A stretch of DNA of 64,000 nt from Bifidobacterium phasiani. GTDB lineage: Bacteria > Actinomycetota > Actinomycetes > Actinomycetales > Bifidobacteriaceae. Of the stretch, positions 40,079 through 44,838 are shown in pieces; positions within the stretch are counted from its first letter, which is position 1; each line of letters opens with the position of its first letter. The notes beneath the pieces were generated by a model, which worked only from the letters and a program-made list of their open reading frames with translations, made no database searches and was not told the DNA's origin. The stretch covers positions 1 to 64,000 of the forward strand of contig NZ_JAHBBD010000014.1 in NCBI RefSeq assembly GCF_019331775.1. Reading direction: 5' to 3'. The position numbers and the translations under genes were made by a program.

Positions 40079-40168
40079 GTGTAGCGGTTTGGCCGGTCCA
40101 GGCCGCTACACTTGCTGTACTTTCCTTCCCTCCCTAATGGGTCGGTCCGGGACGTTCCGGGCCGACCC
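40079..40168 (+). terminator. Two successive terminator hairpins
   Basis: The first, 40079-40111, has GTGTAGCGG/CCGCTACAC arms continued by G-U pairs. The second, 40139-40168, has GGGTCGG/CCGACCC arms plus inner CCGG pairs and is followed by TGTTTCC. They separate the two DcuC-type genes. The ends of the first match those of the MITE-like elements at 42070 and 43307. Confidence 0.7.
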
Positions 40169-41730: not shown

Positions 41731-41754
41731 GGCCGGCGCTGGGTACCGCGCGCC

Positions 41755-41802
41755 CCCGAGTCCGTTGCCGTGCCGGAAGCCCCGCGCGGCAACGGACTCG
41801 GG
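41755..41802 (+). terminator. Terminator after the second carrier gene
   Basis: Perfect 16-bp arms CCCGAGTCCGTTGCCG (41755-41770) and complement (41787-41802) with a 16-base loop. Confidence 0.8.
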
Positions 41803-42461
41803 ACGGCAAGGTCGACCGGTCCGGCGTGGCGTCGCTGAAGTACCGCGCGGCAGCGGGCTCGCGGCATCGACAATGCCACGACGTTCAGGAGCGTGACGGA
41901 AGTTTCGCGTGACAACGGGCTTGGGCCCACATCCTCGACGCCGGTGGCTACTGCTCCGGATCCCGCGTGGCGGCGAGTTCGGGCGTTGTCGTATGGGTGG
42001 GGTGCCGCCCGCCGTATGCGGTCGTCCCGGGACGGTGTTCGCCGGCGGATCGGATCCTTTCGCGTTATGTGTAGTACTTTTGAGGCATTGCGGACATCGA
42101 TCTGCGCTATCTGTGGCATCGAATCACGGAGAACAGGAGTATGACTGGCGGTATTCCGCCAACGGTGACCGGGGCGCCGGCGCCATGCCGCCTCACATAA
42201 CGCATATTGATGTCTGCAGACCCCCAAATCCGCTACACCTTGGCAAGATACGGTCCGGCGGACGGCCGGAACGCGCGGCGTCCGGTCCGTGCGCAGCGGG
42301 CCCCCGCGTCTGCGCGGGGTACGACATGCCGCATTGTGGATAACCACGAACCCTTCGACCACAACGGCCGCCCGGGGTGGACTTGGCGTTCGAGCCTTCC
42401 TATCGTCGAATCATCGGCGCTGGTGCGTGCCGGAACGCGATGAATCGACAGGGGCAACGCG
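41803..42461. other. Intergenic region upstream of the Abi-like gene
   Basis: This 659-bp stretch contains a MITE-like element (42070-42237) and otherwise GC-rich DNA without a recognisable gene on either strand. Short frames here lack family features. It could contain decayed coding remnants, but none could be identified. Confidence 0.5.
42070..42237. mobile_element. MITE-like element, family A copy 1
   Basis: This 168-bp element has terminal inverted repeats of about 50 bp, running inward from TGTAG and including TGCGGACATCGAT and a TGnGGC block. The left arm has diverged near its tip. It matches the copy at 43307-43474 in length and sequence and contains no ORF. The right arm reads outward as CAAATCCGCTACA. 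Confidence 0.8.
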
Positions 42462-43268
42462 ATGGACGAACGGCGAATAGACAATACCCCGGGCTCAATC
42501 ACTGCTCAAGTCAGGAGAGGAGTTCCCGGGGGCTTATACGTTCATGATAACGTGAGGGCCGCGGAGTCCGATATCGCGTGTCGCTACGCCGAGGCGCTGA
42601 GCCGTTGCATCGCCGACGAACGCATGGCCGTCTACCGAGGCCAGTCGCAGGGGCGCGCGGATGATGCGGTGAGGCTGTACTTGTGGGACCGCGACGTGTC
42701 CAATGCGGTGCTGCGCGATCTGGCGCTCGTCGAATTGGCGCTGCGCAACTCGATAGAGACGCAGTTGCGGATCCTGCTGGGCGACCGGTGGTTCGAGTCG
42801 CCCGTGTTCGCCACGCAAAGCCGTCTGTCACGCGGCCTGCATATGGCCAAAACGTCCCTTGCCGGCCGTGCGAAAGATGTCACCAGATCCAGCCTCACGG
42901 CGGAACTGACCTTGGGGTTCTGGGTGAACCTGTTCAACTCGTATTTCGATTCCCTGTGGCGCGACGGTCTGCACCGCGCGTTCCCGGGCGGCCGGCGGCA
43001 GGCCGGGATGGCGGGGGAGCGGTATGGTCGCTCCTGGGTGCTGTCCCAGCTGCAGGTGGTCAGGCAGCTGCGCAACCGGTGCGCGCATCAGGAGCCGTTG
43101 GCGCGTGGCTTTCCCATGCCCAACGTCCGGCATCGTCTGGACGTCGGCGATGGCGTCGCCGCATATATGCGGGTCGCGGCGATGCTGGACCGCGACCTGG
43201 CGCGGTTCATGGGCGTCGACAGCACGGTGCCCCGGCTGCTGGCCCGGCGTCCGGTCGGCAGACAATGA
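42462..43268 (+). CDS. Abi-like (abortive infection family) HEPN protein
   Basis: This 268-residue protein resembles the Abi_2/AbiD-F group: after a variable N terminus come RLYLWDRDVSNAVLRDLALV, ELALRNSIETQLR and a later HEPN ribonuclease motif RX4H (Arg204 to His209 in QLRNRCAHQEPL). Proteins of this family stop phage growth, apparently by cutting RNA after infection, although this one is untested. It stands alone, without a visible antitoxin or partner, between two MITE-like elements. The start at 42462 has an AGGGG site upstream; an internal start near residue 25 is possible. Confidence 0.8.
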   Translation: MDERRIDNTPGSITAQVRRGVPGGLYVHDNVRAAESDIACRYAEALSRCIADERMAVYRGQSQGRADDAVRLYLWDRDVSNAVLRDLALVELALRNSIETQLRILLGDRWFESPVFATQSRLSRGLHMAKTSLAGRAKDVTRSSLTAELTLGFWVNLFNSYFDSLWRDGLHRAFPGGRRQAGMAGERYGRSWVLSQLQVVRQLRNRCAHQEPLARGFPMPNVRHRLDVGDGVAAYMRVAAMLDRDLARFMGVDSTVPRLLARRPVGRQ

Positions 43269-43298
43269 CGTGAGCATGACCGGACCAGATGGTTACCC

Positions 43299-43482
43299 CG
43301 ACTATCTGTAGCGGATTTGAGAACTTGCGGACATCGAACCGCATTACGTGAGGCACTGCATCCGCCATTGCGGGAGTGGCGGGCGCGGAATGCCGCCATC
43401 CGTACTCCGGGTCTTCGCGTTTGCATGCCTCACGTAGCGCATATCGATGTCCGCAGACCCTCAAATCCGCTACACATAGTCG
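43299..43482. mobile_element. MITE-like element, family A copy 2
   Basis: The 168-bp core (43307-43474) has inverted repeats of about 50 bp: TGTAGCGGATTTGAG, then TGCGGACATCGA, then TACGTGAGGCA, each mirrored on the right. The pairing extends outward as CGACTAT/ATAGTCG (43299 and 43482). No ORF lies inside. Together with the copy at 42070 it brackets the Abi-like gene; a related minimal hairpin is at 40079. Confidence 0.82.
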
Positions 43483-43548
43483 AGGTGGTGCCGAAACAGG
43501 TGGCCCGCCATCCGCTTCGTGCCGGCCGGCGGGCCACCCGTCGCGCGC

Positions 43549-44838
43549 TCAGCGGGTGTTCCTGATGAACATGATGACCACGGCGCCGACCAGCACGGCC
43601 GCGATCGCCACGGGGAAGATCGCCGCGTACGAGCCGGTCGCGATCACCAGGGACGAGGTGATGATCGGCGCGACGACCTGGCCGAGCGTGTTGGCGAGGT
43701 TGAGGATGCCCAGATCCTTGCCCGCCTCGTCCGGATCGGGCAGCACGTCCACGTTCAGCGCCTGGTCGACGGCCATGTAGATGCCGTAGCCGAGGCCGAC
43801 CACGCCGGCCATGACGAGCATGCTCGTCGACGTCGGCACCAGCCACGGCACCGCGAATCCGGCGGCGATGACGACCGAGGCGACGGCGATCGGCGGCTTG
43901 CGCCGTCCAAGCCGGTCGGAGATCGGCCCGGACGCCAGCGACGTGACCAGCGAGACCACCATCGTGATGGTCGCCATCTCGGCCACCACGCCGGCGGCGC
44001 CCTCGTTGTCGAGTCCGATGTGGTTCATGCACACGTACAGCTGGTAGGCCATGATCATGTTGTAGCCGAAGATCAGGCACATGCGGCCGACCAACGCGAG
44101 GTAGAAGTCGCGGGCGTTGCGGGTCGGCGGCCGGAACTGCATGACGACCTTGCGCAGGCTGAACCGCTCGCCGCCCTCGCCGAGCGAGGACTTCTCGCGC
44201 GGGATGATGACGATGGTGATGAAGCCGGTGAGCAGCCAGATCACGGTGCCGATGACGAAGCCGACGCGCTCGTTGGTCACGAACTGGGCGCCGATCAGCG
44301 CGCCGAGCGACTGGCCGAGGATCTGGCCCACGCCGTAGAACGCGGACAGCGTGCCGCGGATCCTGGCGGGCACGCGGTCGGAGAGGATCGCCACGCAGGG
44401 CGCGATCATGATGTTGACGCCGATCTGCAGCACCGACCACCAGGCGACGATGCCGACCAGCGACGTGGCGACGGAGGTCATGTAGTAGGCGATGCCGGCG
44501 ACGACGCCGCCGAGCGGGATCCATGGCGTGCGCTTGCCGAAGCGGCTGCGCGTGCTGTCGGAAAGGGCGCCGAACACCACGTTGGCGACCAGCGCGAAGA
44601 TGATGCTCACCGAGTTCATCGTGGCGAGCACGGTCTCCGGCTGGCCGATGTCGAGGGTGGTGAACCGGCTCGGCAGCAGCACCTGCGAGGCGGCCGTGCC
44701 GGCCGTCATCCACAGGATGTTGAAGACGATCATGCCGGCGGCGAAGCGGATCTTGTGGCCGGTGGGCATCGGCAGGCCGGTGTCCGGGGCGATGTCGTCG
44801 GCGACGACGGCCTCGCGCTCCTCATCGTTGAGGCTCAT
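43549..44838 (-). CDS. GPH-type sugar:cation symporter (MFS superfamily)
   Basis: This 429-residue carrier of about 12 segments has loops FGALSDSTRSRFGKRTPWI and GPISDRLGRRKPPIA and the motif DQALNVDVLPDPDEAGKDLG, as in the carriers at 15521 and 18652. It lies downstream of GH78 on the same strand and may import a rhamnosylated compound, or may be driven by its own promoter. The start at 44838 follows AAAGGACCATTCCC. A GC-rich stem (44861-44888) sits in its leader. Confidence 0.88.
   Translation of the reverse strand: MSLNDEEREAVVADDIAPDTGLPMPTGHKIRFAAGMIVFNILWMTAGTAASQVLLPSRFTTLDIGQPETVLATMNSVSIIFALVANVVFGALSDSTRSRFGKRTPWIPLGGVVAGIAYYMTSVATSLVGIVAWWSVLQIGVNIMIAPCVAILSDRVPARIRGTLSAFYGVGQILGQSLGALIGAQFVTNERVGFVIGTVIWLLTGFITIVIIPREKSSLGEGGERFSLRKVVMQFRPPTRNARDFYLALVGRMCLIFGYNMIMAYQLYVCMNHIGLDNEGAAGVVAEMATITMVVSLVTSLASGPISDRLGRRKPPIAVASVVIAAGFAVPWLVPTSTSMLVMAGVVGLGYGIYMAVDQALNVDVLPDPDEAGKDLGILNLANTLGQVVAPIITSSLVIATGSYAAIFPVAIAAVLVGAVVIMFIRNTR

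Follow-up and report, generated by a model that had tools for sequence, protein, structure and literature searches.

Equal-length four-site palindromes between the genes of bifidobacteria, two of them on either side of an Abi_2/HEPN gene

We describe a family of non-coding palindromes in bifidobacterial genomes, in which each copy carries four short sites with a spacing of 42 bp, the length of the unit stays constant while the consensus differs between species, and the copies lie between genes. Two copies stand in the window, that is, in the whole stretch of 64,000 nucleotides of Bifidobacterium phasiani that was analysed, one on either side of a gene of the Abi_2/HEPN type. With a little less than even confidence, we take these elements to be mobile four-site palindromes without coding capacity, bound by a predicted protein acting in trans that likely copies them from one intergenic place to another, with the Abi gene being likely a separate arrival. 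Below, G000 denotes the source genome of the window (2.71 Mb in 54 contigs), the other G numbers denote related genomes and the L numbers denote element loci.

The features of the locus, with the half-sites placed by the alignment and the 42-bp spacing, are as follows.

42056..42251, no strand, element copy 1 (alignment columns 1-196; 168-bp core 42070-42237)
42057..42077, + strand, left outer half-site of copy 1, degenerate, with TGTAGTACTTT in place of TGTAGCGGATT
42099..42119, + strand, left inner half-site of copy 1
42188..42208, - strand, right inner half-site of copy 1
42230..42250, - strand, right outer half-site of copy 1
42462..43268, + strand, Abi_2 / AbiF-like HEPN gene (268 codons from ATG 42462; GTG 42552 may be the true start)
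43293..43488, no strand, element copy 2 (alignment columns 1-196; 168-bp core 43307-43474)
43294..43314, + strand, left outer half-site of copy 2
43336..43356, + strand, left inner half-site of copy 2
43425..43445, - strand, right inner half-site of copy 2
43467..43487, - strand, right outer half-site of copy 2

It is noted that the first-pass annotation had described two palindromic elements of 168 bp, free of open reading frames and with inverted repeats, beside the Abi gene, and that both are indeed present (42070-42237 and 43307-43474) and belong to one family; in the second copy the inverted arms are 61 nt long and 82% complementary. The second element begins 38 bp past the stop codon of the gene, just as had been said. 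The distance of 392 bp given for the first element needs correction to 224 bp if the gene starts at ATG 42462, or to 314 bp if it starts at GTG 42552, the start preferred by the gene caller used here. The length needs correction as well, the conserved unit being 194 bp from outer site to outer site. A smaller hairpin at 40079-40111, which had been linked to the elements by its ends, is real and is no member of the family: in 344 kb of G000, scanned with the elements masked, three such hairpins were counted against 1.8 expected. This hairpin, a singleton with the ends TGTAGCGG/CCGCTACA, lies directly past a transporter gene. Elsewhere in the window, at 41732-41923, a gene for a transporter of 482 aa is followed by three degenerate repeats of 35 nt, spaced by 61-62 bp, and by an inverted repeat.

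A blastn search with copy 2 returned about 40 copies in G000, four short matches in the 60 congeners sampled and nothing in 38 further relatives; full-length copies were thus reached by single-sequence blastn in G000 only, and a profile was needed to reach the congeners. A weight matrix trained on 25 copies gave scores of 154-254 bits for 36 copies, with the peak over the shuffled window at -146 bits, and revealed that the bases flanking the 168-bp core on each side are also conserved. The 36 copies align without gaps over 196 columns, with a mean column identity of 75% and with invariant columns standing among free ones, the alignment leaving out five of the first 41 copies, which have small indels. 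With a profile built from sequence alone, at least 52 distinct copies were found in G000 and at least 22 in G052, and G094 carries 16. The median identity among the G000 copies is 68%, yet they are of equal length. In G080 and G045 the copies are more diverged and many matches are partial. The first-pass annotation had advised searching bifidobacterial genomes for the core. Of the 111 further genomes in the genus, at least 57 are matched by the profile with E<=1e-3; across the family, at least 59 of 189 genomes (G000 included) match at E<=1e-4, and these belong to two of 16 genera, one of them a sister genus. These copy and genome counts are lower bounds, given the strict filters and the scoring of the best 150 candidates per genome. 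The unit was not matched in the plasmid and phage collections, and it is not described in the open-licence papers searched on bifidobacterial palindromes, MITEs and invertible repeats.

Each copy consists of two arms around a centre; an arm comprises two sites of about 20 bp, one outer and one inner, so that two direct sites 42 bp apart are followed by their mirror pair. The outer-to-inner spacing was examined in four species (G000, G052, G118 and G051) and is 42 bp in each, which corresponds to four turns of B-DNA. The unit is exactly 194 bp long in 46 of 52 copies of G000, 18 of 22 of G052, 14 of 16 of G094, all four of G101 and all nine of G051, which makes 91 of 103 copies over the five species, while in G118 nine of ten copies are 204 bp long. 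The consensus of the sites differs from species to species, being ATCTGCGTTAgCGGTAGTG in G052, ATCTGCGTTATGTG(TA/AG)GCG in G118, GCTTATnTnTGGC in G051 and ATCTGnaTTAnGTG in G000. Moreover, the outer site best resembles the inner site of its own species in three of the four (G052, G118 and G051); the exception is G000, where the outer site scores 0.57 against its own inner site and 0.59 against that of G052. We infer from these species-specific sites that they follow one trans-acting protein.

Based on this reading, a single protein would read all four sites and move the unit, and the copies would be kept by the binding of this protein or of another host protein. The protein would be a recombinase or transposase that binds DNA as a dimer and occupies both sites of an arm, the outer and the inner, from the same side of the helix; once bound, it would pair the two arms, and a copy would be inserted elsewhere with no visible target duplication. 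The specificity of the protein would drift between species, with the sites following it. It had been suggested that a transposase is supplied in trans, and this stands in the sense that the elements form a dispersed non-coding repeat family and any enzyme must therefore act in trans. No candidate for the protein that would bind or move the unit was identified: no recurrent recombinase or transposase is seen by eye in the 25 largest of the 57 neighbour clusters, and the transposase families scanned by profile were Y1_Tnp and Phage_integrase. Note also that one copy in G052 (L085, G052:C1 835349-837291) adjoins a tyrosine recombinase gene.

The pair L083/L068 of G052 is the clearest sign of movement, since its units are 92% identical and its flanks are unrelated (0.48 and 0.40, with a background mean of 0.49). 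In L083/L082 (86%) and L050/L022 (85%) the units are alike and the flanks likewise unrelated. At L031 (96%) and in L080/L076 (95%) and L101/L100 (94%) the flank is also common on one or both sides; because three of the four closest pairs also have flank in common, longer duplications contribute to the copy number. Comparison with shuffles at lengths of 2-6, 8 and 9 gave no excess of target duplications at a consistent place in 113 copies, the maximum of the direct-duplication test being 0.18 against 0.08 at distant offsets, where it is noted that a TA duplication at the ends would be invisible to this test. For the seven copies present in G052 only, no clean empty site was found in G094 with 250-bp flanks. 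In two of the seven cases the flanks are found near each other in G094, and at each of these two sites the difference goes beyond the unit itself. At L084, G094 is missing not just the unit but over 100 bp of its surroundings. No lone element end was matched in G000 among the matches listed. Two further arrangements of copies are recorded here. At L016 3058-3581 (G000:C12) two copies about 136 bp apart are each other's closest kin (82%), and L097/L098 (G051:C1), about 197 kb apart, carry the same element with mirror-image flanks, an inverted duplication or an assembly artefact.

None of the 102 copies examined for placement in six species lies inside a gene called by our own gene caller. They stand between tandem genes in 51 cases, convergent genes in 35 and divergent genes in nine, with seven having no called gene on one side. 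Divergent gaps thus hold nine of the 95 classifiable copies, to be compared with 59 of the 258 gaps of at least 150 bp at the same loci (P 0.001), a comparison set that includes the gaps holding elements. The 95 genes adjoining the G000 copies look mostly ordinary by eye, and distant species have few neighbour genes in common. Two Schlafen AlbA_2 genes adjoin element copies (L032 1262-2908 and L051 3177-4925).

A different proposal, which we regard as the strongest competitor, is possible and somewhat less probable than mobility: the copies would be chromosomal docking sites for a host DNA-binding protein with a part in organisation or regulation, maintained by selection, with copying being rare and incidental. 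The constant 194 bp across five species and the fixed spacing are expected of such sites, as is the avoidance of divergent gene pairs, and in G000 there is hardly any partial match (one) among the matches listed. Moreover, by their flanks 15 of the 16 copies of G094 have a counterpart in G052, one of these (L079/L120) being weak. Positions fixed in all relatives and no association with variable genes, the pattern that the first-pass annotation had held to speak against its interpretation, is nearly what one close species pair presents; across the genus it does not hold.

Lower divergence in place in part of the sister-species pairs also speaks for docking sites. In 11 of the 15 pairs, the half-sites differ at 22 of 924 positions (2.4%), as against 5.7% in the centre and 8.0% in the flanks, the counts being 8/462 for the outer sites, 14/462 for the inner sites, 20/462 for the spacer, 43/749 for the centre and 104/1294 for the 60-bp flanks; the half-sites depart from the flanks with P 4e-9 and from the centre with P 5e-4, and there is one indel column in the units against 52 in the flanks. 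This set of 11 omits three pairs whose centre matches better when inverted and the weak pair, and is thereby biased towards conservation. Over all 15 pairs, aligned in the orientation of the flanks, the unit is 91.6% identical and the flanks of about 120 bp are 92.7% and 91.8% identical, so that the base identity of the unit does not exceed that of its surroundings; the unit stands out by its few gaps alone (20 columns, with 514 and 308 in the flanks). Conservation in place is thus a matter of the 11 pairs out of 15, and gene conversion among the copies may give the appearance of selection. Between L077 3030-3223 and L114 3058-3251, from two close species, the centre of about 70 bp alone is inverted, arms and flanks being in place (94% identity inverted versus 60%); the centre also agrees better when inverted in L074/L066 (76 vs 59) and in L072/L063 (79 vs 49). 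Strand switching between the arms may account for such inversions, as may a recombinase.

Further observations weigh against docking sites. Among the candidates scored, 54 of the 111 other genomes of the genus have no match at E<=1e-3, and where the family is present the copy number varies widely (52, 22 and 16); distant species have few neighbours in common, as stated above, and the clustering of copies on the chromosome is weak (P 0.03 in G052 and 0.26 in G094, with a window size picked after looking). A broader statement, that half of the genus possesses an undescribed genome-wide system of equal-length four-site palindromes with a fast-evolving reader protein, selected in place, with a flippable centre and not the remains of a transposon, is in our estimate possible though less likely than not, and ranks slightly below the docking proposal in its narrower form.

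By comparison, we give small weight to the idea of a cassette, in which a pair of copies carries along what lies between them, the Abi gene here and Fic and Phd-Doc genes at other loci, the route being either transposition or copy-to-copy recombination. This idea is close to that of the first-pass annotation, which suggested a composite that could move a phage-defence gene. Four pairs of elements under 2 kb apart exist in G000, not an unusual number given that random placement of 52 copies expects 1.9 (P = 0.12). Three of the four bracket genes, namely Abi_2, Fic, and Phd with Doc and a LuxR-type HTH gene (Pfam: Fic PF02661 1.1e-9, Phd PF02604 1.8e-7, Doc PF02661 1.8e-13). All three of the gene-bracketing pairs in G000 thus hold toxin or abortive-infection genes, which the cassette idea would explain. 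It would also be consistent with the PADLOC matches at <=1e-8, found for three of the five bracketed genes (Abi, Fic and Doc) and for one of 40 control genes (Fisher P 0.003, a post hoc value; the controls were drawn at random from the fetched loci and the window, and the one that matched is an ABC-type ATPase by eye), and with the codon scores of Abi, Fic and Doc, which fall in the lowest 3.6 to 6.0% of 249 genes, that of Phd not doing so. The kinship of the copies tells against it. The two copies around the Abi gene are 66.5% identical and stand 22nd and 29th among each other's 51 relatives; not being close kin, they argue against a composite moving jointly; the copies around Fic rank 2 and 14, and the Phd-Doc pair is the sole one of the three made up of closest kin. 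The two tight pairs looked at in other species, in G080 and G106, moreover, bracket other genes, which by eye are asd together with a second gene in one case and a gene of amidohydrolase type in the other; the neighbours of the copies look mostly ordinary by eye, and no target duplication stood out. Among the matches listed, which comprise the best two stretches per genome, none of the 111 other genomes has both flanks of the Abi locus together and none of the matches covers the Abi DNA. The composite suggested for this locus is not upheld, and the Abi gene probably arrived separately from the two copies that bracket it. As to the other two loci, the lone Fic gene lies between its copies at L001 3666-5272 (G000:C51), with a PADLOC match to PDC-S72 at 1.9e-60; the nearest named relatives of a Fic gene of G000 are bifidobacterial; the Phd-Doc and LuxR-type HTH genes lie at L031 2987-5013 (G000:C18), between copies that are 96% identical, with some flank common on one side.

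A role of the unit as RNA, in which a long hairpin would terminate transcripts or make them more stable, is very improbable, although the predicted fold of the 196-bp stretch is very stable (-121.2 kcal/mol, z -13.5, for copy 2 and -76.5 kcal/mol, z -3.8, for copy 1, with none of 200 shuffles as low in either case), many copies sit past gene ends and the arms in G052 agree above the shuffled level (0.534 vs 0.475), because the left arm and the reversed right arm vary independently in the 52 copies of G000 (identity at 50 variable columns 0.491 vs 0.497 shuffled), the arms in G118 and G051 agree below the shuffled level, the consensus fold retains only 19 pairs, a terminator-like T run is absent and no Rfam family reaches its gathering score in the 64-kb window. 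Since the arms do not covary, the hairpin is not the conserved feature in G000, and for want of covariation over these copies a constraint through RNA or a cruciform is rejected there. The single Rfam match, to MIR918, reaches 47 bits where 268 are required and seems to be a long hairpin matched by chance. Around the Abi locus, neither terminator nor promoter patterns were detected.

The mobile palindromes that we favour can be compared with several known systems. REP sequences are extragenic palindromes with a species-specific consensus, and in both of these respects the REP and REPIN sequences resemble the present unit. An assignment to REPIN/RAYT fails on the enzyme, Y1_Tnp (PF01797) being found in seven of 112 genomes of the genus and not in G000. 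The elements are like MITEs in being non-autonomous, with terminal inverted repeats, no coding capacity and dispersed copies at unrelated sites; they may be unlike them in that no target duplication was seen and no parent element was met with among the neighbours and families examined, and hardly any copy in G000 is partial. With the CREE of Neisseria they have in common that short non-coding units with inverted repeats occur many times per genome with no known transposase. The available text of PMC2649163 gives for CREE the end TATAG[CT]GGATTAA, lengths of mostly 104-108 or 153-157 bp and clear insertions between strains, often at TA. The stretch TAG[CT]GGATT is common to that end and to the outer site here (TGTAGCGGATT, GGTAGTGGATT), a likeness of 9 bp that may be chance. 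As far as that text describes CREE, the unit here differs in being 194 or 204 bp long, in its four 20-bp sites and in that no target duplication was seen, and membership was rejected on the ends, which read TGTAGCGGATT / GGTAGTGGATT and not TATAG[CT]GGATTAA. The mobile integrase cassettes of B. longum, likewise bifidobacterial, comprise three integrases, a 20-bp palindrome and a 96-bp inverted repeat in the available text of PMC2430713, and the repeat sequences printed there differ by eye from the present unit. Adjacent recombinase trios are absent from G000, G052 and G094, which carry 52, 22 and 16 copies, and such trios and mobile integrase cassettes were set aside for G000. Adjacent tyrosine recombinases of the recombinase-in-trio type do occur at G118:C23 16912-19269 and at G045:C1 998647-1001101 and 1353773-1356227, the two sets in G045 being mirrored.

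The Abi gene itself had been annotated as Abi-like with an RX4H HEPN motif, and this is borne out: Pfam Abi_2 (PF07751) is matched at E 1.4e-6 with 29.2 bits, above the cut-off of 25.6, so the open reading frame is not unrelated to Abi/HEPN proteins by profile search; the motif reads R204-N-R-C-A-H209, with R204, N205, R206, H209 and E211 invariant in 22 aligned sequences; and the fold matches that of AbiF. There are 34 homologues at E<=1e-3, and PADLOC matches the protein to PD-T4-5 (6e-10) and AbiD (1.6e-5). In the AlphaFold2 model (pLDDT 84, with the first 37 residues under 50), the best Foldseek match is 8vz6, the PbAbiF dimer with its RNA (probability 1.00, query TM 0.59, E 1.3e-3, rmsd 12.3), which is also the sole sequence match in the PDB (E 0.015). 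According to the available text of PMC12373285 and PMC12737573, AbiF toxins are neutralised by an upstream RNA, and the former gives RNQCAH as the motif of C. difficile AbiF, close to RNRCAH here. The protein is likely to work as an AbiF-type HEPN RNase toxin. It differs from known AbiF in being only distantly related and in that the abiF RNA (RF03085) was not found near the gene, whether over 42440-42580 with E values of up to 10 or over 42000-43600 with E values of up to 1; of 54 loci fetched, the 20 that hold distant relatives likewise gave none. A GC-rich hairpin at 42487-42531, within the first Abi codons, has z -1.8 with 9 of 200 shuffles as good; its translation (TPGSITAQVRRGVPGG; TPGSxTAQ..GRG..G) recurs in four homologues that are 44-48% identical, and in the homologue P0004, where these residues read TPDS/GSGD, a compensated pair would be possible. 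As a lead only, it is possible that this hairpin is an RNA antitoxin overlapping a mis-called N-terminus.

Finally, we note what the finding would mean for the bifidobacteria. The four-site layout, the constant length and the species-specific consensus point to a co-evolving, predicted DNA-binding protein, and the family is widespread in a well-studied gut genus, yet was not described in the papers searched. At stake is whether bifidobacteria harbour trans-mobilised elements of a new class or a system of sites that spans the chromosome, and whether paired copies help to gather toxin-antitoxin genes.
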